Origin: Candidatus Mcinerneyibacteriota bacterium
Lineage (GTDB): Bacteria > AUK180 > JAQVHJ01
NCBI GenBank assembly: GCA_030630935.1
Contig: DAOVMD010000086.1
Location: 1 to 9,380 of the forward strand
Direction of reading: 5' to 3'
DNA: 9,380 nucleotides
A program made the translations under genes and the position numbers. Below the pieces are notes generated by a model. The model searched no databases, was not told the DNA's origin, and saw nothing but the letters and a program-made list of their open reading frames with translations. Positions 1 through 9,380 of the stretch are shown here, in pieces (within the stretch, counting starts at the first letter, position 1; each line of letters begins with the position of its first letter).

Positions 1-3000
1 AAATTCTGACATCACTAAAATCCGATGACTTAACTTTATCTTTCAGGGCAAAAATTCCAAACATTGAGAAATGATCAGTATAAATTGTAATAGTATTCTG
101 GACAGGATCAATTTCACCGCCTATAAGTTCCCACTTATTCTCAGGTTCATTCCAGTACCATATTTTTAATTCAAGTTCATTTATTCCTGGGTCCCCAGTC
201 CCGTCCACATATCCGTTATCATCAATATCATTATAATGAATCGTCATTTTCACAGGATTCTCAAAAGTTATTCCTTCGTTATCTGCATAGAACTCCCGGA
301 CTTCACCAGTCTCGATCATCCTTCCGGTTGTATCAGAAGCAGGTGGTGGTGAAGTCGGAGCGATTACACTTAGCTCCACACTACCGGAGACATCATCACT
401 TCCAATTGAGACTTCGGTATATCCAAAATCCTTTAAGGTTTGACCGGAAGAATCAGTTTGCGAAACTGAAGTTATTGGCAAAACATTCAACTTAAAACTT
501 CCATCGGAAACTTTTACAATATACGTCAGTCTATCCCCGCCATAAGGAGCCCACATTGAAAATGCTTCATTATAAGGATTATCCCCGAGAACCTGTGGAG
601 CAAGGTTAGCGTCAGATTCATCGCCTGATACTCTTGGATCATCCCAATGAGTAAGATATATATTAAAGTCTGAATTAGTTAATGACGGCAGAACTCCAAT
701 TGAATTAAAATCTTCATTTGAAAAATCATTCATAATATCTTCTGTGAAAAGGATGATCTCTCCATCGCTTGACCAGCTCGGTGACCAGGTTGGGAGATCA
801 GAATCAGTTATCCTGGTAAGATAAGTTGTATCATCCCAGGAATTTACAGTTACAGCACCGCCACTGGGCATATTTGCATTTATTAAATCCTGAACCCGAT
901 TCAGAACATAGATATCTGTTTTATTGGTTGTTCTCGATTCGCGGACAAATACAATCTTTAACTCACCTGCCGGACCTGAATAACTCCCGTCAGATTCCCA
1001 CCATCGCGGTTGGAGGCATCTATCTGAAGTGGTGTCAAACGCACCATTACATAAAGAAGTTAACCTGATTAATGAATTGGGAAGGTCATCAGGATCAAAT
1101 AGATATAAATCACCATGAACAGAACATACTATCCTGTCGTCTCCATTTCCATTCACGTCAACTAACCCGGGAAAATTCGTATAATCCGGGTCAAACCAAT
1201 TAATATAATATCCGGATGCTGCAAGTGAAAGATGTTCCTTTGCAGTCCCGTCTTCCTTGATCCTGAAAATCTGTGAGTACCCTGAAACATTCTCTTCACA
1301 ATAATAGATATAATCAGGTACTCCTCCCCCGGGACCGCCCCAGCTAATTTTTGAGAAATAAACAATTGTATCTCCTTCGGTCACGGTATTTAAGACTCCT
1401 GATTCATTTGGTGAAATTGTATAGAGCCCCGGGTGACCTGAGCGATCAGAGATGAATGCAAGTTTCTGATCTGTTACATCAACACCCCAATCCGGGAATA
1501 AAATATAATGTCCTGAACCTACCTCAGCATTCTGAATATGTAGAACTTCATCTATCCGAATATCTATCCCGGTATCCTTCGGGGTAAATAATTTTACTTG
1601 CCTATCTGATAAGACCGGTGATATGAAGTTGCCGCTTCGGTCTTGAATTGTTGAAGGGACTGTAATCGTATAGGTTGTTCCATGCTGGAGATTTGTTGTT
1701 GTTAATTTTATACTTAAATCGTCATTTAATAAAGAAACATCTGAAATGTTTACTACTGGAGCAAATGTATAATCGGCAGGATTTCCAATTGAAGATGGGT
1801 TAACTTTTATATTTGTTTTTATAATGATAATATTATCTTCAGGATTAAAACCTGTACTGACTTTTAGTAATGCGGGAACAGACCAGGTTGATTTGGATAG
1901 GAAACTTTCAACATTCGCAGAATTCTCCGCGGTGACTTTAAAATAATAAGTTAGCCCGGACGTTAAGCCTGAAGCAATATAAGTCGAACCCGTAACCAGA
2001 CCGCTTACATCAATATAATTTGTATCTTCCTGAAGACTCCTGTAAATATGATAACCCTGGTTATTCTCTTCCGGGTTCAGGTACCAGCTAACAAGGACAG
2101 AGTTCGATGAATATGGTTCCGAAAATACTCCTTCAGGTCTACGGAAATCTTTTAAAACTGTTGACATAACTATGTTTTGTGAAGGGAGAGAGTTTATACA
2201 TTCAAACGGAAAACCAAATACTATTATCCTTGAAAGACCGGTTCCGTTATTTTCATAGCCATTCCAATTTAGGGCTGCATTCCTGCCTGAACCGTAACTT
2301 AAAATATTCACCCCGTCATTTATACCTTGAATAGAATCGGGCCAGCGTGCTTGATATGATGCAATACCCTGGGTTGACCCGGCATCATCTGTATAAATTT
2401 CAAAGCTTACTCCTTCAAAGATCTGTCCTGCTAAACCATTTACCGTATAACTGATCCCGTCATCAAATAAATAATTCGATTTCAAAACTTGATTATAAAG
2501 TTCAGGGTTACTGCCTTTGTATTCTAAATCATAACCTATCTCAGCACCGGTTAATAAAAATTTTCCGCCAGCGGTTAAGTACGCTTCAATAAATGGAGCT
2601 TCATCAGAATTTAATGAGCCTGTTCCATAATCAGGCGGGAACGAATCAAGACCGGTAAACCAGATAACCTTATCATAATCCGTTAAAACCAAATCACCAT
2701 CGACAATCGCTTCAGAAGTGGAACCGTCAAAGTAATGTGAATCATTCACGGATGCTTTTCCATACGGGACAAAATAATCATTCGGGAAATTCCGATTCTC
2801 ATCCTCAACAATTAAAAGATCCGGGATTTGTGACCCTGAAACTCTAACTCCTAAAACATCGGTTGGTCCGGATTGATTACCTGCATGGTCTTCACTCTTC
2901 ACCCTGAAATAATAATCCTGGCTAACTGTTAAACCTGATAATACAGTTGAATTCGGAGTTGAAGAGACAGTAGTTAATAAACTAAAACTGGAACCGTCCG

Positions 3001-5236
3001 TGCTGAACTCAATTGCAATATTTGAAATATCTTTCATATACCCGGTAGTCCAGGCGATCTCAATATCTCCTGTCCCGGAATTTTTTACATATTTAATTTT
3101 GCTTGAATCAGGTGGGACATTATCAAACCATATTAGAATTCGTCTTAGGACTTCCTGCCTTTCAGACGGAGACGTAATTGTTTCAAATGGAAATCCGAAA
3201 TGGACAAGCCGGCCTTCCTCAATTCCTGCTCCGAATAATCCTGAGTACTGGATCCCTGCAGTTGTACCGGTTCCGTAAGTCAGGCAGACTGCAGAACCAT
3301 TGATTGCAGCAATCACATCAGGCCATTGTGCTTCATAAGCTCCACCGTCAGGAACACTATCGTCATCGTCAAAATAGAAATCCATTGAACTTAAAATTCC
3401 TGCACCTAATAAATGATAGTTACCCGAGTCGTCCTGGATATAATTTGCTTTTATAAAATCATTATAATAAACCGGGGCAGTACCTTTAAAATCAAGGTCA
3501 TACCCAATCTCAGCACCTGAAATAAAGAATCTACCGCCACTCTCAAGATATGCCTGAACAAGCGGACGCTCTGCAGTATTTAATGTGCCGGTGCCGTTGG
3601 TCGGGGCAAATGAATCACGGCCTGTAAACCAAACCACGCCCATATAACTCGAAAGGAGAACTGTTCCGTTTACAACCGCTTCAGAACCACAGTTATCAAA
3701 TGAGAAATCAAGATTCCTGATTCCCTCACAGAAATATTTTGAATAGTCATCATTATTAAACCTGTTATCATCTTCCACAATTAAAATTCTATCTGTATCA
3801 GTTGAAATTTTCACACCATAAACATCTGATGCACCTGAGATATTACTGTTTAGATCGATTGCATAAATTTTATAATAATAAACATCACCCGGAGTGATGC
3901 TCGAATCAAAATAGTGAGTTGCCGTCTTTGAAGGAGAAGTTAAGAGAGAAAATGAAACTGCGTCAGGACTCTTATAAATTTGATATTCATCGAGGTCAGA
4001 ATCACCAACCGTTTCCCAGATTATCTCGACTTGACTATTTTCAAATTTCACAATTGATAATGTTGGAGTCTCGGGTGGTACACTATCAGCGCAGAACTTA
4101 TCCCGTAAAACGTCCCAGAGATCATTCTCAACTCCATCATAACCAAGAGCCCACATCCCAACCCCGCCAAGGTCGGAAGAGATTGCAAGGTCATACTTCA
4201 AACCGAGTGAAACTTCGTCGTCATACCAGCACTGATACCAACCCGGGTCCTGATATTTATACCATGGTGTCTGGGAATTCGTATCCCATAACCGTCCGTA
4301 GGTTACTGCTTGACCTTTGGCATTCCGGAAAATTACCACAGACCCGCCTCCGGTCGTATTTGCATTAATGTTCCCTGAGTCAGTTGGCCATTTATAACCG
4401 TAATATGGAACTCCGAGTATAAATTTATCTGTATATAATCCCCAATCAATATAGTCCTGAACTGTCCAGGTAACATTATAAGTTCCCCAAACTGCACCCG
4501 AAGTCAACTGGGCAACAGGCCCGGCTTTTGAAGCTGAAGACCAGTGATAATCATAAGCCATAATAAATAAAGCATCACAATTCAATGCAAGTTCATCATA
4601 ATCAAATACTCCATTCCAATCAACTGCAGGAGTACAGATCGAAACATGATAATCAGGGTCGGCATCTTTGAATGCTGTATTTAATTCTGTCATGAAAGTT
4701 ACAAGCAATACCTTGTAACCGGCAGGAACTCCTTCAAAATCTATGCAGACACCATCTCCATTCCCATTCTGAACAAGAGTTAACAAATTGCTTATTAGGT
4801 TAGCACGATGTGTGGGGCTGGATAAAATATCCCCGATCGTAGTACTGCCAAAACAAGTGACAGTTAAAACAACCTTAACTCCATTTGCATGAGCAGTTAC
4901 AATAGGAGCATATTCAGGCCAATGCCAACCTGCAGCATTATTAAGTGAACCATCAGAATTCGCTTCAACTGAGAACCATGCTAATATTGTTAATAAATCC
5001 CACTCAATCTCACTTAAATAATTTGACGAGTATGAATTATAAAAACCCATAACTTCCTTTGTCACACAAGGTGTACTGCGAGTAGTCGGGACCCGGTTAT
5101 CGGGGAGCTTACCGGCCTTACCCTTGAGACGCTCAAACTCAAGCTGATGAATGCTCTTGAACTCATGATCAAATGCAAATACAGTACTAGTCATTATTAT
5201 TAAAATCAAAACCAGGAAGGATAATCTTTTTAACAT
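1..5236 (-). CDS. Large secreted GH18-family multidomain protein, C-terminus beyond the window
   Basis: I translated the minus strand from the ATG at 5236 and found 1745 codons with no stop, so the gene is partial at its 3' end. Domains, in approximate residues: signal peptide 1-21 (MLKR, hydrophobic core, cut near VFA); GH18 barrel 60-383; FnIII 388-478; GATase1-like module 482-705; FnIII 708-800; second GATase1-like module 806-1031; FnIII 1034-1121; SbsA-type Ig-like 1125-1219; TolB/PD40-like beta-propeller 1220-1600; ZU5-like beta domain 1602-1731. By family it should hydrolyse or bind beta-1,4-linked amino sugars (chitin, peptidoglycan or related glycans) outside the cytoplasm; the substrate is not visible. 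The other modules probably serve adhesion or display. The start is supported by the signal peptide, by a promoter about 30 bp upstream and by a weak GGA 8 bases before the ATG. The frame reads cleanly throughout, so this is not a pseudogene. Domain limits are by eye; the GH18 call is firm and the later modules are less so. Confidence 0.95.
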   Translation of the reverse strand, partial: MLKRLSFLVLILIIMTSTVFAFDHEFKSIHQLEFERLKGKAGKLPDNRVPTTRSTPCVTKEVMGFYNSYSSNYLSEIEWDLLTILAWFSVEANSDGSLNNAAGWHWPEYAPIVTAHANGVKVVLTVTCFGSTTIGDILSSPTHRANLISNLLTLVQNGNGDGVCIDFEGVPAGYKVLLVTFMTELNTAFKDADPDYHVSICTPAVDWNGVFDYDELALNCDALFIMAYDYHWSSASKAGPVAQLTSGAVWGTYNVTWTVQDYIDWGLYTDKFILGVPYYGYKWPTDSGNINANTTGGGSVVIFRNAKGQAVTYGRLWDTNSQTPWYKYQDPGWYQCWYDDEVSLGLKYDLAISSDLGGVGMWALGYDGVENDLWDVLRDKFCADSVPPETPTLSIVKFENSQVEIIWETVGDSDLDEYQIYKSPDAVSFSLLTSPSKTATHYFDSSITPGDVYYYKIYAIDLNSNISGASDVYGVKISTDTDRILIVEDDNRFNNDDYSKYFCEGIRNLDFSFDNCGSEAVVNGTVLLSSYMGVVWFTGRDSFAPTNGTGTLNTAERPLVQAYLESGGRFFISGAEIGYDLDFKGTAPVYYNDFIKANYIQDDSGNYHLLGAGILSSMDFYFDDDDSVPDGGAYEAQWPDVIAAINGSAVCLTYGTGTTAGIQYSGLFGAGIEEGRLVHFGFPFETITSPSERQEVLRRILIWFDNVPPDSSKIKYVKNSGTGDIEIAWTTGYMKDISNIAIEFSTDGSSFSLLTTVSSTPNSTVLSGLTVSQDYYFRVKSEDHAGNQSGPTDVLGVRVSGSQIPDLLIVEDENRNFPNDYFVPYGKASVNDSHYFDGSTSEAIVDGDLVLTDYDKVIWFTGLDSFPPDYGTGSLNSDEAPFIEAYLTAGGKFLLTGAEIGYDLEYKGSNPELYNQVLKSNYLFDDGISYTVNGLAGQIFEGVSFEIYTDDAGSTQGIASYQARWPDSIQGINDGVNILSYGSGRNAALNWNGYENNGTGLSRIIVFGFPFECINSLPSQNIVMSTVLKDFRRPEGVFSEPYSSNSVLVSWYLNPEENNQGYHIYRSLQEDTNYIDVSGLVTGSTYIASGLTSGLTYYFKVTAENSANVESFLSKSTWSVPALLKVSTGFNPEDNIIIIKTNIKVNPSSIGNPADYTFAPVVNISDVSLLNDDLSIKLTTTNLQHGTTYTITVPSTIQDRSGNFISPVLSDRQVKLFTPKDTGIDIRIDEVLHIQNAEVGSGHYILFPDWGVDVTDQKLAFISDRSGHPGLYTISPNESGVLNTVTEGDTIVYFSKISWGGPGGGVPDYIYYCEENVSGYSQIFRIKEDGTAKEHLSLAASGYYINWFDPDYTNFPGLVDVNGNGDDRIVCSVHGDLYLFDPDDLPNSLIRLTSLCNGAFDTTSDRCLQPRWWESDGSYSGPAGELKIVFVRESRTTNKTDIYVLNRVQDLINANMPSGGAVTVNSWDDTTYLTRITDSDLPTWSPSWSSDGEIILFTEDIMNDFSNEDFNSIGVLPSLTNSDFNIYLTHWDDPRVSGDESDANLAPQVLGDNPYNEAFSMWAPYGGDRLTYIVKVSDGSFKLNVLPITSVSQTDSSGQTLKDFGYTEVSIGSDDVSGSVELSVIAPTSPPPASDTTGRMIETGEVREFYADNEGITFENPVKMTIHYNDIDDNGYVDGTGDPGINELELKIWYWNEPENKWELIGGEIDPVQNTITIYTDHFSMFGIFALKDKVKSSDFSDVRI
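44..433 (-). other. C-terminal ZU5-like beta domain
   Basis: Residues about 1602-1731. A Pro/Ser-rich linker (APTSPPPAS, 1626-1634) leads into strands with ITFENPVKMTIHY (1656-1668), an Asp-rich turn (DIDDNGYVDG), then LKIWYWNE, KWELIGGEID and a closing HFSMFGIFAL. This resembles the ZU5-like domains near the end of many long secreted bacterial proteins. The family name is tentative. The frame continues as SSDFSDVRI to the window edge. Confidence 0.5.
437..1579 (-). other. TolB/PD40-like beta-propeller region of the GH18 protein
   Basis: Residues about 1220-1600. Several blades resemble the PD40 pattern of TolB-type propellers: FPDWGVDVTDQKLAFISDRS (1247-1266) followed by LYTIS, and PTWSPSWSSDGEIILFTED (1482-1500) followed later by NIYLT. 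A further blade ends in DIYVLNR (1441-1447). Loops between blades are long and irregular, so the number of blades cannot be fixed by eye. Such propellers usually act as binding scaffolds. Confidence 0.6.
2144..2821 (-). repeat. Internal duplicated module, copy 2 (GATase1/ThuA-like fold)
   Basis: Residues about 806-1031. It repeats copy 1 in the same order: LLIVEDENR, VIWFTGLDSF (857-866), YLTAGGKFLLTG (886-897), AEIGYDL (898-904) and IVFGFPFE (1005-1012). The two copies agree at well over half the positions in the central stretch but differ throughout at DNA level, so the duplication is old or the copies were shuffled as domains. Each copy is preceded by an FnIII domain, so the duplicated unit is probably FnIII plus module. 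Confidence 0.75.
3122..3793 (-). repeat. Internal duplicated module, copy 1 (GATase1/ThuA-like fold)
   Basis: Residues about 482-705 of the GH18 protein, first copy of a module found twice. It starts with a beta strand followed by acidic residues (ILIVEDDNR), as in Rossmann-type glutamine-amidotransferase-like domains of secreted bacterial proteins. It then has VVWFTGRDSF (534-543), a YLESGGRFFISG strand-turn (563-574), AEIGYDL (575-581) and VHFGFPFE (678-685) near its end. I see no Cys-His-Glu triad, so it is probably non-enzymatic. The fold assignment is inferred from motif order; the duplication itself is plain. Confidence 0.75.
4088..5059 (-). other. GH18 catalytic domain (YaaH-like), with one atypical active-site residue
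   Basis: Residues about 60-383 of the large protein. The active-site strand reads DGVCIDFE (161-168). In the GH18 consensus DxxDxDxE the acid/base is the last Glu, here E168 at 4733-4735, and D166 is also kept. The middle Asp is Cys (C164); spore-type YaaH enzymes often have Asn there. Other family signatures are MAYDY (226-230), ILGVPYYG (273-280) and GMWALGYDG (360-368) near the end of the barrel. The essential acid is present, so activity is plausible. The Cys could lower or alter catalysis, and a glycan-binding role is the alternative. Confidence 0.92.
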
Positions 5237-5353: not shown

Positions 5354-5380
5354 AAGTAGTCGTTTTTTAGGAAGCAGTAG

Positions 5381-5399
5381 GGGTTAACGGCGTTAACCC
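5381..5399. repeat. Inverted repeat with the same GTTAAC core
   Basis: GGGTTAAC (5381-5388) and GTTAACCC (5392-5399) pair perfectly around GGC. It shares the GTTAAC-nnn-GTTAAC core with the element at 5304-5330, but its outer arms and loop differ. Confidence 0.8.
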
Positions 5400-5570: not shown

Positions 5571-5590
5571 GGGCGTCTCGCCAGACGCCC
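5571..5590. repeat. REP-like GC-rich hairpin
   Basis: GGGCGTCT (5571-5578) and AGACGCCC (5583-5590) pair perfectly around CGCC, and CCTACA follows. Its arms contain the GTCT/AGAC word and its flank the CTACA word of the hairpins at 7271-7300 and 7377-7396, which suggests a diverged member of the same family. It is G+C rich against an A+T-rich background, as REP elements often are. Confidence 0.7.
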
Positions 5591-5744
5591 CTACACCGCT
5601 TGGAATACAATTCTTTGGTTTTCGAATGAATACATCATTTTTTTGTTTTGTTTTCTTATGTTCTCATCAGTTCTCCCGATGCAAAAAATCCCCGACAAAT
5701 CGGAGTAAACTCAATCACATCCCTTCGGTCGGCGACCTGCTATT

Positions 5745-5767
5745 CTCAAGCAACTTTGTTGCTTGAG
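5745..5767. repeat. Perfect 10-bp hairpin with TTT loop
   Basis: CTCAAGCAAC (5745-5754) and GTTGCTTGAG (5758-5767) pair perfectly around TTT. No T-run follows on either strand, so I do not call it a terminator. Confidence 0.8.
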
Positions 5768-5775
5768 CAGAGAGT

Positions 5776-5792: not shown

Positions 5793-5925
5793 GAACAGAA
5801 TGCAAATGCGGTAGTTGAACCCCCTATAATTGTTTAACATTTTAACCATTGAACTATCCCAACTCATACACATTTGAACTTTTTGTTAACACTTGAACCA
5901 TTCAACTATCAAAACTATTGCACAC

Positions 5926-5987
5926 TTGAACACATGCGAAGCATGCTTTGAACATTTGAACAATTGAACACTTGAACATTTGAACAC
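5926..5987 (+). repeat. TTGAACAN octamer array with CATGC hairpin (block A)
   Basis: TTGAAC at 5926, a hairpin CATGC-GAA-GCATG (5933-5945), then five octamers TTGAACAN starting at 5948, 5956, 5964, 5972 and 5980. Only the eighth base varies (T, A, C, T, C). More diverged TTGAAC/TTTAAC words extend left to about 5814. It lies just 3' of the serpin gene, where the transcribed strand reads TGTTCAA. The same layout recurs at 7403-7428 and 9268-9313. Confidence 0.85.
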
Positions 5988-6013
5988 TTTGTTGTAAAGC
6001 GAAGCGAAACAGA

Positions 6014-7204
6014 TCACTGTCGTGGATCTTTAACTGAACCAATAAAGATTATCAAGCCTGTTTCTTCATCTACAATTGCAAAGAAATATGGTCTGGTAAC
6101 ATGCATCTTAAATGGTTTTGGAGGTCTATAATCTTCTGAACAAGGTACAATCCCCAGCGTTACTTCGGTAACTGCCGCGGCTTCAGTACCTTCTTCATTT
6201 ATTTCAATAAATGAATCCTGGATTACTTCTTTAATATAAAAATTCATTTTCTCACGATCAAAATCTATCAGCTTAGATAAATCAGCATCTTTCTCGTCAA
6301 ATAAAATACCCATACCTAATTGTGTTAAGTATTTTGAGAGATCTATATTCTTTCGGAATTTTAATCTTGGCAGCTTAATCTCGCCTTTTCGTTCATGAAA
6401 AGGCTTCTGCCACCCATTCCAGCTTTTATTATTTAATGAAGTAACAAAACTATCCAAGGACTCTCCCTTACTTGGGAGAAAAACATACATACAAATTCGT
6501 TTCCCTATGTATGGTAGCTTGATCGCCTGGAACTTATTATTTTCAAAATATTGGAAGTAGTCACTCCTGAACATTAAAGGTACCTTTTTCTCATCACCAT
6601 TTTCCAAATTGAATATTTCTTCTTTGGTCTTTGCTTTATCAAACTTCAAGTCCCAGAGCCCTTTAAAATATATGGTATTAATAATGAAGGCAATGTCCTT
6701 TTCACTAATATCACTTATTACATTTTTAAATATTCCATTCGTATTCTCTTTAACGATTTTATTTATTTCTTTAATTAAAAGTTCTTTGTCTTCCTGAGAA
6801 AAATCTCTCTTATTAATTGCAGCATTAAAATATTTATCATTTAAATTCATGAATTCTTTCTTGAAATCAAAATACAATGTAATTAATTCTCTATTAAACA
6901 TTCCTGTCCATCTATCGGTAAACCATAAAGAATTGAACATTTGAATTTTTAATTCACTAGAATCCAATTGATTTAAATATTCTATTATTTCTTTATTACT
7001 AAAATTGATCTCATCAATATCAATATTATCATAATGTAAGGTTGACTTAATCGCATTATAAGTCCTGCCTTCAGCACCGTTCAGGATAATTGTGAGTGGG
7101 ATTTGAATACTAATTGGAGAAATGAATTGATTCTCATTAGGCAGGTCAAGATATACCTCTTTAAATATATCAAAAAGAAAGTCCATGAATATCATCTTTT
7201 TCAT
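6014..7204 (-). CDS. Serpin, inhibitory type, predicted cytoplasmic
   Basis: A 396-residue serpin, near the usual core length. Family landmarks: helix A and FISPISI (27-33), LNGAEG (41-46), the shutter motif NTIYFKGLW (176-184), KLPRLKF (277-283), the hinge EEGTEAAAVT (337-346) and the C-terminal TRPYFFAIVDEETGLI ... GSVKDP. The small-residue hinge is typical of inhibitory serpins, which trap serine or cysteine proteases covalently. Counting 17 residues from the hinge Glu puts P1 at V353 with Pro at P1', so the true cleavage bond may be shifted and the target cannot be predicted. There is no signal peptide, so it probably guards cytoplasmic proteins or acts after lysis. I chose the ATG at 7204 because AAAGGT lies 6 bases upstream; the frame can be extended to a TTG at 7219, but that codon is upstream of this site. 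It is transcribed from its own strong promoter, divergently from the DUF89 operon. Confidence 0.95.
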   Translation of the reverse strand: MKKMIFMDFLFDIFKEVYLDLPNENQFISPISIQIPLTIILNGAEGRTYNAIKSTLHYDNIDIDEINFSNKEIIEYLNQLDSSELKIQMFNSLWFTDRWTGMFNRELITLYFDFKKEFMNLNDKYFNAAINKRDFSQEDKELLIKEINKIVKENTNGIFKNVISDISEKDIAFIINTIYFKGLWDLKFDKAKTKEEIFNLENGDEKKVPLMFRSDYFQYFENNKFQAIKLPYIGKRICMYVFLPSKGESLDSFVTSLNNKSWNGWQKPFHERKGEIKLPRLKFRKNIDLSKYLTQLGMGILFDEKDADLSKLIDFDREKMNFYIKEVIQDSFIEINEEGTEAAAVTEVTLGIVPCSEDYRPPKPFKMHVTRPYFFAIVDEETGLIIFIGSVKDPRQ

Positions 7205-7210
7205 AATCTT

Positions 7211-7216
7211 ACCTTT
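7211..7216 (-). promoter_or_regulatory. Ribosome binding site that sets the serpin start
   Basis: AAAGGT on the minus strand, 6 bases before the ATG at 7204. It lies inside any reading that begins at the upstream TTG (7219), which favours the ATG. Confidence 0.7.
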
Positions 7217-7239
7217 CAACGATTTGATTAATCTGAAAT

Positions 7240-7268
7240 ATTATAACATAAAACCCATTCAAAGTCAA
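7240..7268 (-). promoter_or_regulatory. Strong predicted sigma-70 promoter of the serpin gene
   Basis: Minus strand: TTGACT (7263-7268), 17-bp spacer, TATAAT (7240-7245), with TG one base before the -10 (TATGTTATAAT). It is one base from full consensus. The predicted start near 7233 gives a leader of about 29 bases. A 13-bp perfect hairpin begins 2 bp upstream of the -35. Confidence 0.85.
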
Positions 7269-7270
7269 AC

Positions 7271-7300
7271 TGTAGAGACTTGCGATAGCAAGTCTCTACA
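7271..7300. repeat. Perfect 13-bp hairpin next to the serpin promoter
   Basis: TGTAGAGACTTGC (7271-7283) and GCAAGTCTCTACA (7288-7300) pair perfectly around GATA. The TGTAGAGAC...GTCTCTACA arms resemble hairpins widely dispersed in bacterial intergenic regions. It is followed by ATAACATTTGAACA, linking it to the octamer family. No T-run is present. Confidence 0.9.
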
Positions 7301-7360
7301 ATAACATTTGAACAATTTAACGATCTCAACTTACACACACTTGAACATCTTTTTAACATT

Positions 7361-7414
7361 TAAACGATTGAACCATAGACATGCCGTGGCATGTCTCTAC
7401 AATAACACTTAAAC
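7361..7414 (+). repeat. Tandem repeat unit 1 with GACATGCC hairpin
   Basis: The unit starts with an 18-bp sequence (7361-7378) identical to 7445-7462. It then forms the hairpin AGACATGCC-GT-GGCATGTCT (7377-7396), followed by CTACAATAACACTT. Compared with unit 2, two stem base pairs differ and both changes keep pairing. Confidence 0.85.
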
Positions 7415-7415
7415 A

Positions 7416-7428
7416 CATGCAAAGCATG
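7416..7428. repeat. CATGC-AAA-GCATG hairpin (block B copy)
   Basis: CATGC (7416-7420) and GCATG (7424-7428) flank AAA. It is preceded by TTAAACA, a diverged octamer. The same small hairpin is embedded in the TTGAAC arrays at 5933-5945 and 9291-9305. Confidence 0.7.
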
Positions 7429-7444
7429 CCTTTATAAAAACACT

Positions 7445-7498
7445 TAAACGATTGAACCATAGATGTGCCGTGGCACATCTTTAAAATAACTTTTTAAC
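7445..7498 (+). repeat. Tandem repeat unit 2 with GATGTGCC hairpin
   Basis: Second copy of the unit at 7361-7414, 84 bp downstream. Its hairpin AGATGTGCC-GT-GGCACATCT (7461-7480) keeps a perfect 9-bp stem despite two substitutions per arm. The right flank is TTAAAATAAC in place of CTACAATAAC. Confidence 0.85.
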
Positions 7499-7534
7499 GT
7501 TTTATTAACACTTGAACTATTTAACATTTTAACT

Positions 7535-7553
7535 CTCAGATTTGACATCTGAG
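7535..7553. promoter_or_regulatory. Inverted repeat enclosing the -35 box (candidate operator)
   Basis: CTCAGAT (7535-7541) and ATCTGAG (7547-7553) are perfect 7-bp arms around TTGAC, the first five bases of the -35 box at 7542-7547. A dimeric regulator bound here would block RNA polymerase. No regulator gene is in the window, and the arms do not match the repeat family nearby. Confidence 0.55.
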
Positions 7554-7570
7554 GAATCCTATGATATAAT
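7542..7570 (+). promoter_or_regulatory. Consensus sigma-70 promoter of the DUF89 operon
   Basis: TTGACA (7542-7547), a 17-bp spacer and TATAAT (7565-7570), both exact consensus, plus an extended -10 TG (TATGATATAAT). Predicted start near 7577, about 18 bases before the TTG start codon. So strong a promoter inside a candidate operator suggests repressible control. Confidence 0.9.
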
Positions 7571-7584
7571 ACAGATTCAAAATT

Positions 7585-7590
7585 GGAGGT
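7585..7590 (+). promoter_or_regulatory. Ribosome binding site that sets the DUF89 start
   Basis: GGAGGT, 4 bases before the TTG at 7595. A start at the upstream TTG (7583) would put this site inside the coding region, so 7595 is preferred. Confidence 0.75.
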
Positions 7591-7594
7591 AAGA

Positions 7595-8437
7595 TTGAAG
7601 ACAGATCCGAGATGCATTCCATGTTTTTTTCAACAGGCAATTAACTTAAGTAAAATAATGAAACTTGACGAGAATATTCTTAAGAAGATTCTCAAAGAAA
7701 CAGGTTTAATAATCAATGACATTACTTTTGAAGAGACTCCCGCTGAGATTGGGAGAAGAGTTTACTCAATGATTAGTCAGATCACCGGAGTTGAAGATCC
7801 ATATAAAAGTCTAAAGAGAGAGAGTATCGAAACTGCATTGGGGCTCTATCCTGATTTAAAAGAGAAAGTTGAAAATTCAAATGATAAACTTCTATCAGGA
7901 ATAAAATATGCAGTTGCAGGAAATATAATTGATTTCGGAGTAGGTAAAGAATTTGATATTCATGATGAAATTGATAAGGCTGCAACTAAACAATTTGCAA
8001 TCTTTGATTATCCTGAATTTAAGGAGTCATTAATAAATGCTGATAGTATTTTATATATTGCAGATAATGCCGGCGAGAGTGTTTTTGATAGATTACTCAT
8101 TGAACAATTACATAAACCTGTTCTCTATGTTGTTCGGGAAAAACCAATTATAAATGATCTAACTTATGAAGATGCTGTCGCATCAGGAATTCCGGATCAT
8201 ATAAAAATTATTTCATCCGGGGTTACTGCACCGGGAACAATATTAAAACTATGCTCAGATGAATTCATCGAAATCTATAATAATGCAGAAATGATTATTT
8301 CAAAAGGACAAGGGAACTATGAAGGGCTTTCCGGAGAACCAGGAAATATCTTTTTCCTCTTAAAAGCAAAATGCGAATGCGTTTCTGAAAAACTTAATGT
8401 TCCTCTCGGTTCTCTTATCTTGAAAAAGTCGGAGTGA
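7595..8437 (+). CDS. DUF89 / ARMT1-like metal-dependent phosphatase family protein
   Basis: A 280-residue protein of the prokaryotic DUF89 type (COG1578-like). Members are metal-dependent phosphatases thought to remove damaged or surplus phosphometabolites; the substrate here is unknown. Visible motifs: the N-terminal CIPC (C7, C10) of this subfamily, TGVEDPY (64-70), AGNIIDFG (108-115), ADNAGESVFD (156-165) with the metal-ligand pair D157-N158, IINDLTYEDA (185-194) probably giving the third acidic ligand, SKGQGNYEGL (236-245), and FFLLKAKC (253-260). All expected landmarks are present and the length is typical. Translation probably begins at the TTG at 7595 (MKTDPRC...), which fits the usual DUF89 N-terminus. 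No signal peptide or membrane segment, so cytoplasmic. It is the first gene of an operon, read from a consensus promoter overlapped by a candidate operator, and is followed after 3 bp by a membrane protein gene. Confidence 0.93.
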   Translation: MKTDPRCIPCFFQQAINLSKIMKLDENILKKILKETGLIINDITFEETPAEIGRRVYSMISQITGVEDPYKSLKRESIETALGLYPDLKEKVENSNDKLLSGIKYAVAGNIIDFGVGKEFDIHDEIDKAATKQFAIFDYPEFKESLINADSILYIADNAGESVFDRLLIEQLHKPVLYVVREKPIINDLTYEDAVASGIPDHIKIISSGVTAPGTILKLCSDEFIEIYNNAEMIISKGQGNYEGLSGEPGNIFFLLKAKCECVSEKLNVPLGSLILKKSE

Positions 8438-9130: not shown

Positions 9131-9267
9131 TATGAAAAATAAAACTATAATGAAAATTGATATGAAGAAGTTTTTTTCTTATTTATGCATTTCCTGAATT
9201 TCATGTATAAGATGATTTAATATAAATCCGTTCTTTGACATAATTTCGCTTCACTACACAATAAAGA

Positions 9268-9313
9268 GTTCAAATGTTCAAGTGTTCAATGCATGCTTTG
9301 CATGCGTTCAAAT
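9268..9313 (-). repeat. TTGAACAN octamer array with CATGC hairpin (block C, inverted)
   Basis: On the plus strand GTTCAA starts at 9268, 9276 and 9284, an exact 8-base period. Then come the hairpin GCATGC-TTT-GCATGC (9291-9305) and GTTCAA at 9306. The spacing across the hairpin (9284 to 9306, 22 bases) equals that in block A (5926 to 5948). It is inverted relative to blocks A and B. Confidence 0.85.
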
Positions 9314-9322
9314 GTTATTGTA

Positions 9323-9344
9323 GAGACATGCAATTGCACGTCTC
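9323..9344. repeat. Imperfect GAGAC...GTCTC hairpin (block C)
   Basis: GAGAC (9323-9327) pairs with GTCTC (9340-9344); one A/C mismatch follows, then the self-complementary TGCAATTGCA (9329-9338). Preceded by TTATTGTA and joined to the octamer array as in block B, it is a member of the TGTAGAGAC family. Confidence 0.7.
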
Positions 9345-9380
9345 AATAAAATAATTTAAAAACAAAACCACAGATATTTC

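Follow-up and report, generated by a model that had tools for sequence, protein, structure and literature searches.

The locus raises the question of why two neighbouring hairpins should have exchanged two base pairs of their stems while both arms stayed complementary. The window, i.e., the whole stretch of DNA that was analysed (9,380 nucleotides), is the entire contig C13 of a metagenome-assembled genome (MAG) of 3.16 Mb in 471 contigs and 80% completeness. Its features are collected in Table 1.

Table 1. Features of the window with positions and strand (a dot marks features given without strand).
Feature	Positions	Strand	Description
GTAG palindrome	5377-5399	+	unrelated stem, GTAG-GGGTTAAC-GGC-GTTAACCC
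GTAG palindrome	5571-5594	-	unrelated stem, GTAG-GGGCGTCT-GGCG-AGACGCCC
Serpin gene	6014-7219	-	PF00079, divergent neighbour
Promoter of serpin gene	7240-7268	-	TTGACT-17-TATAAT, TG before -10
Third H1 hairpin	7272-7299	.	'double foot', GTAG-AGACTTGC-GATA-GCAAGTCT-CTAC
Repeat island	7302-7535	.	imperfect octamers of NNTTNAAC type (ATTTGAAC, ACTTGAAC, AATTGAAC)
H1 hairpin, unit 1	7377-7396	-	CA/TG stem subtype, AGACATGC-CGTG-GCATGTCT
GTAG tag of unit 1	7397-7400	-	CTAC on + strand; abuts foot, unpaired; ATGG on opposite side
H2 hairpin	7415-7429	.	ACATGC-AAA-GCATGC, second palindrome family of the island, no GTAG tag
H1 hairpin, unit 2	7461-7480	-	TG/CA stem subtype, AGATGTGC-CGTG-GCACATCT
Promoter of ARMT1-domain gene	7542-7570	+	sigma-70 type, near-perfect, TTGACA-17-TATAAT, TG before -10
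ARMT1-like gene	7583-8437	+	damage-control phosphatase, PF01937, divergent neighbour
Fourth H1 hairpin	9320-9343	+	opposite orientation, GTAG-AGACATGC-AATT-GCACGTCT

The original prediction described a left part shared by two units 84 bp apart and two compensatory pair changes that leave the stem perfect. Both statements were confirmed from the sequence, except that the identical part, TTAAACGATTGAACCATAGA, measures 20 bp (7360-7379 and 7444-7463) rather than 18 bp. Units 1 and 2 are 20-nt hairpins with a realistic stem of 8 bp and a loop of 4 nt, the only differences between them being C-G to T-A and A-T to G-C. At the tag position of unit 2 (7481-7484), the sequence reads TTAA, so that this unit has lost its GTAG. 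The third hairpin of the same family, termed H1, shows an extra compensated change (G-C to T-A at pair 5), and the fourth carries one single-arm change, which is a G.T mismatch on the minus strand. Since the stems of unit 1 recur on contigs C149, C170, C85 and C130 and those of unit 2 on C126, the two changes need not postdate a local duplication. The term "duplicated hairpin", as first applied to the locus, is apt for two similar units but understates the scope, because the units belong to a dispersed family of about 80 copies.

Using the window region as a query yielded 66 matches in the own genome, and the hairpin pattern with at most one mismatch was found at 80 places as compared with 0 for a reversed-pattern control; the hairpin pair is not due to chance. 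From about 110 fetched stretches of the own genome, 82 H1 copies were gathered, with the consensus AGACGTGC-NNNN-GCACGTCT. Candidates with five or fewer pairs were regarded as chance background and discarded, and four look-alikes with 6-7 pairs were removed by inspection because the family flanks were missing. All eight pairs are Watson-Crick in 62 of the 82 copies and 6-7 pairs are formed in the remainder, while the loop occurs as CATG, CGTG, TATG, CATA, AATT, GATA and other variants. Every one of the 82 copies lies outside open reading frames of at least 100 amino acids. Where both neighbouring genes were seen (n = 51), the copies lie between co-directional (28), divergent (15) or convergent (8) genes, and neighbouring H1 copies form eight direct pairs and one inverted pair. 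The hairpin was absent from all 59 other genomes searched from the list of relatives, and a literature search for the hairpin sequence itself retrieved no relevant paper among the 20 listed.

A longer stem that includes the outer AGAGAC was considered and rejected on the genome-wide set, in which the GTAG foot is usually unpaired; the exact stem query AGAGAC..GTCTCT finds only five places in the own genome, as the outer foot is broken in most copies. Chimeric hairpins were also observed. In stretches L030, L041, L048, L050 and L053, the H1 right half GGCACGTCTCTACAATAAC (a variant of it in L053) is fused to a different palindrome, and this partner, CTCAAGCAAC..GTTGCTTGAG, is also present at 5740-5772 of the window. 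Recombination within the hairpin made a half-copy module that recurs.

Covariation of the stem was analysed on a main set of 51 distinct flank-plus-hairpin sequences, in which 98% of the stem cells are paired. Cells changed on both sides number 18, against 3.2 ± 1.4 in shuffles (none of 500 reaching 18), and both-changed Watson-Crick cells number 20, against a maximum of 8 across 2000 shuffles; controls with a slid register gave at most 72.5% pairing. To avoid selecting for pairing, a second set of copies was anchored solely by the right flank and the right arm. The resulting 100 places are bimodal, 76 having 6-8 pairs and 24 having four or fewer; this low group consists in large part of other hairpins (H2 register) and of chimeras whose left arm has given way to another palindrome. 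The compensated changes comprise C-G to T-A at pair 4, G-C to A-T and G-C to T-A at pair 5, G-C to A-T at pair 2, and A-T to G-C and A-T to C-G at pair 1, the foot, i.e., at least six different outcomes spread over four pairs. A flank tree was uninformative for counting independent events (pair 4, 10 changes vs 10.8 shuffled), and as the flanks hold no phylogenetic signal for stem type, independent compensatory events are not countable on a tree. With covariation above the shuffles on every measure, the check proposed at the outset (more copies and a covariation test) came out in favour of maintained stem pairing.

In units 1 and 2, the variable pairs 4 and 5 form an ACGT (CpG) step in both arms, and most compensated changes are transitions at these two pairs. 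It could be argued that such hypermutable steps decay independently in each arm and match by coincidence. In that case, the unmatched states TG/TG and CA/CA should be as frequent as the matched ones. Where both arms carry a transition, 14 of 14 copies are matched and none is unmatched, and compensated changes occur also at pairs 1 and 2, so that mere coincidence is hardly credible. Which positions vary may reflect CpG mutability; the joint variation of the two arms does not.

On the strand antisense to the octamers, the hairpin has the form GTAG-AGACGTGC-NNNN-GCACGTCT. An exact GTAG lies at one foot in 67 of the 82 copies (73 within one mismatch), and the other side shows CCAT, TATC or ATCG; just four copies have GTAG at both feet, where it is pairable. 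In the fetched DNA, no tetramer is as strongly enriched next to perfect 8-bp hairpins as GTAG (67 observed vs 1.0 expected). GTAG palindromes with unrelated stems also occur in this genome, two of them in the window (Table 1), so that it harbours several families of repetitive extragenic palindromes (REPs).

These properties are the published signature of the GTAG-tagged REPs of Di Nocera et al. 2013 (PMC3733652), which are short, high-copy intergenic palindromes with one unpaired GTAG foot, complementary changes between stem subfamilies and several stem families per genome. As in the definitions of PMC3733652 and PMC6006769, H1 is a high-copy intergenic palindrome within 20-40 bp, has an unpaired GT[AG]G 0-2 nt from the 5' foot, and forms a fully paired stem within 7-20 nt with a loop within 2-5 nt. 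The Quentin predictor additionally filters for at least three G/C in the first four stem bases, of which AGAC has two; its rules are broken by 4 of 66 known families, and the G/C filter stands outside the 2013 definition (PMC6006769). The AGAGAC stem does not appear in the text of PMC3733652, the survey reports GTAG repeats from Proteobacteria, Cyanobacteria, Chloroflexi and the PVC group, and H1 differs from them in not being depleted between divergent genes and in sitting in octamer-repeat mosaics.

Other REP classes were compared likewise. The third window hairpin with its GTAG/CTAC ends is similar to the 'double foot' REPs of TnpA-REP subclass 2.4 (Quentin et al. 2018, PMC6006769), as are Bacteroidales palindromes of the form GTAGAGACG...CGTCTCTAC, whose two ends are likewise GTAG and CTAC; however, most H1 copies are single-footed, and no repeat-flanked gene of the subclass 2.4 type was found. 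Mosaic intergenic palindrome arrays are shared with REPINs/BIMEs, and compensatory changes are reported to be common in the REPIN hairpin (PMC3116915), but H1 copies stand in direct order and do not form inverted doublets as a replicating unit. CGTC-tagged REPs are of similar size, whereas the H1 foot bears GTAG and no unpaired CGTC. Such CGTC-tagged repeats are known in Bacteroidetes and Chlorobi and are not known to have a dedicated transposase.

We consider it probable, at roughly 60%, that the H1 hairpins are a GTAG-tagged REP family residing in mosaic islands, whose folded single-stranded DNA is recognised by a TnpA-REP/RAYT-like enzyme. The TnpA-REP enzymes of E. coli, Stenotrophomonas and Marinomonas cut folded single-stranded REPs, and GTAG is crucial for cleavage by the E. 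coli enzyme (PMC8266576). Where the REP is a perfect palindrome, cleavage is almost lost or severely impaired by a mismatch in the stem, whereas exchanging stem blocks for their complement has modest consequences (PMC8266576). Such mismatch sensitivity is a constraint that would leave compensated stems. By analogy, we infer that this biochemistry may carry over to the present genome and that H1 may be mobilised by a RAYT. The functional form would be the extruded hairpin of single-stranded DNA, whose GTAG tag and paired stem would be recognised by an HUH transposase of the TnpA-REP/RAYT type that is active now or was formerly active in the lineage. Copies with a broken stem would not be re-mobilised, and those with both arms changed would spread, giving rise to stem subfamilies; unit 2, having lost its tag, would be a dead copy retaining its stem.

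Covariation classically points to RNA structure, and the H1 stems would fit a transcribed hairpin acting in mRNA stability, termination or regulation. REPs elsewhere are often transcribed downstream of genes (PMC3733652), and on the minus strand the window hairpin at 7269-7302 is terminator-like. This copy alone has a terminator score, owing to its flank; units 1 and 2 lack a T-run and lie upstream of the promoters of both genes, as the island occupies the gap between two near-consensus divergent promoters. Genome-wide, a promoter-like site (score of at least 10) lies between H1 and the facing gene at 39 of 60 gene starts vs 16% in shuffled sequence, and the divergent gaps noted above hold 15 of the 51 classifiable copies. 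Many H1 copies are thus not included in the mRNA of the following gene. The single-arm changes do not clearly favour one strand (about 11 of G.T type vs about 5 of A.C type), and the Rfam 15 covariance models gave no match in the window up to an E-value of 1. Maintenance of the stem as RNA is improbable.

Long imperfect tandem NNTTNAAC octamers are present also at 5835-6010 and 9244-9345, linking different palindrome modules, and contig ends of this MAG often fall inside octamer islands, e.g., the right end of the window. Beside the serpin, which is a full-length bacterial one, the minus strand of positions 2-5236 encodes a secreted-looking protein of more than 1745 amino acids with GH18 and fibronectin type III domains. 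A comparison of L095 (3698-3893) with C91 (L124, from 791) showed 93% identity up to TTCTTTGACATA, past which L095 enters an H1 island and C91 does not. This is a presence/absence difference of an island between near relatives, for which insertion and deletion are both possible. L095 derives from a Chlorobiota-labelled MAG, which was rejected as a sister genome on account of only two matches, and is probably a stray contig of the lineage studied here.

Exact searching of genome contigs located hairpins, e.g., GTAGAGACGCGCCATGGCACGTCTCTAC, in MAGs of Bacteroidales and Salinivirgaceae; three such whole genomes contain 95, 25 and 54 AGAGAC...GTCTCT palindromes (GTAGAGACG-type). Their inner stems are wholly different yet paired (TAGCGCGCTA, GTGTGCACAC, CAAAATTTTG, ATGTGCACAT), and one pair is Watson-Crick in 47 of 47 palindromes with three pair types. 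The genomes of L096 and L098 (Bacteroidales/Salinivirgaceae) harbour a subfamily GTAGAGACG[C/T]GCCATGGC[A/G]CGTCTCTAC, which is common and in many copies has a C.A/T.G mismatch at one fixed pair, the other pairs being matched.

A perfect dyad with a variable 4-bp centre could equally be the symmetric site of a dimeric DNA-binding protein, with stem variants serving paralogous or tolerant proteins. Within one genome, however, both half-sites shift together to several sequences while the centre varies freely, the exchange of the whole inner stem in Bacteroidales would hardly be tolerable for a sequence-reading protein, and the asymmetric GTAG tag lies outside any dyad site. We regard this explanation as very improbable. 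Among the four mechanisms left open by the original prediction, recognition of the hairpin at the DNA level is hence favoured, and RNA and a symmetric protein site are disfavoured, so that the original interpretation is supported in part.

Template switching at a hairpin during replication (quasipalindrome correction) would copy mutations of one arm into its partner, with no selection acting on pairing. This is an established mechanism (PMC8794818), and it predicts perfect stems and free loops, as found in H1; moreover, the nearest flank neighbours of several compensated H1 variants carry consensus stems. The untagged H2 hairpins (consensus RCATGC-NAA-GCATGY, 6-bp stem) behave differently, with a ratio of compensated to single-arm interior changes of 4:27 as compared with 16:21 in H1. 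Fisher's test gave p = 0.008 for all copies and 0.02 for distinct hairpins, the copies not being independent, and p = 0.05 and 0.14, respectively, with the foot pair included. The H2 contrast weakly disfavours a general hairpin-templated correction; it is not decisive, as the H1 hairpin is longer and stronger. The mismatch persisting at a fixed pair in many Bacteroidales copies also speaks against such correction, which we consider rather unlikely.

A transposase for the favoured GTAG-tagged REP reading was sought among Y1 genes. The own genome contains three Y1_Tnp matches above the cut-off, one of which (L011) is cut by a contig end. The product of a further one, L010, which has a C-terminal extension, matches REP_Tyr_transpos as its best NCBIfam model with 67.7 bits, below the cut-off of 80, and no sequence relative of it was found in the PDB. 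In REPtrons, as defined in PMC3733652 and PMC6006769, the tnpA-REP (RAYT) gene is flanked by cognate repeats. No Y1 gene flanked by GTAG hairpins was found in the own genome, at 80% completeness and with L011 truncated, nor was an H1-flanked Y1 transposase gene found in the MAGs of L094, L095, L096 and L098. In L009 (740-1207), the 3' end of an IS200-type transposase reading frame is apparently overwritten by a repeated motif (translated ELQRYRSY..TKISPLQSCKDIAPTELQRYRSYG), which suggests that a further repeat family has entered a Y1 gene.

Against the favoured reading stand the negative search for a repeat-flanked Y1 gene in these genomes, the sub-threshold RAYT score of L010, the direct rather than inverted order of the copies, the presence of two instead of three G/C in AGAC and the flanks that give no tree for counting independent compensatory events. 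It is conceivable, though rather doubtful, that the family has no cognate flanking transposase and that stem pairing is maintained in the DNA itself, outside transcripts, through copying or repair directed by the hairpin and confined to GTAG-tagged hairpins as opposed to their untagged neighbours.

Compensatory change in REP hairpins has already been reported (PMC3116915, PMC3733652), and H1 adds a further case to a known type of small mobile DNA and does not represent a new mechanism. It extends the range of REP-type elements to a sparsely sampled lineage and, together with the Bacteroidales relatives, points to a widespread set of GTAGAGAC palindromes. The tagged H1 and untagged H2 hairpins of the same islands constitute an internal control within one genome, which bears on which process, the mobilisation of intact hairpins or template switching, gives rise to compensatory change in DNA palindromes.
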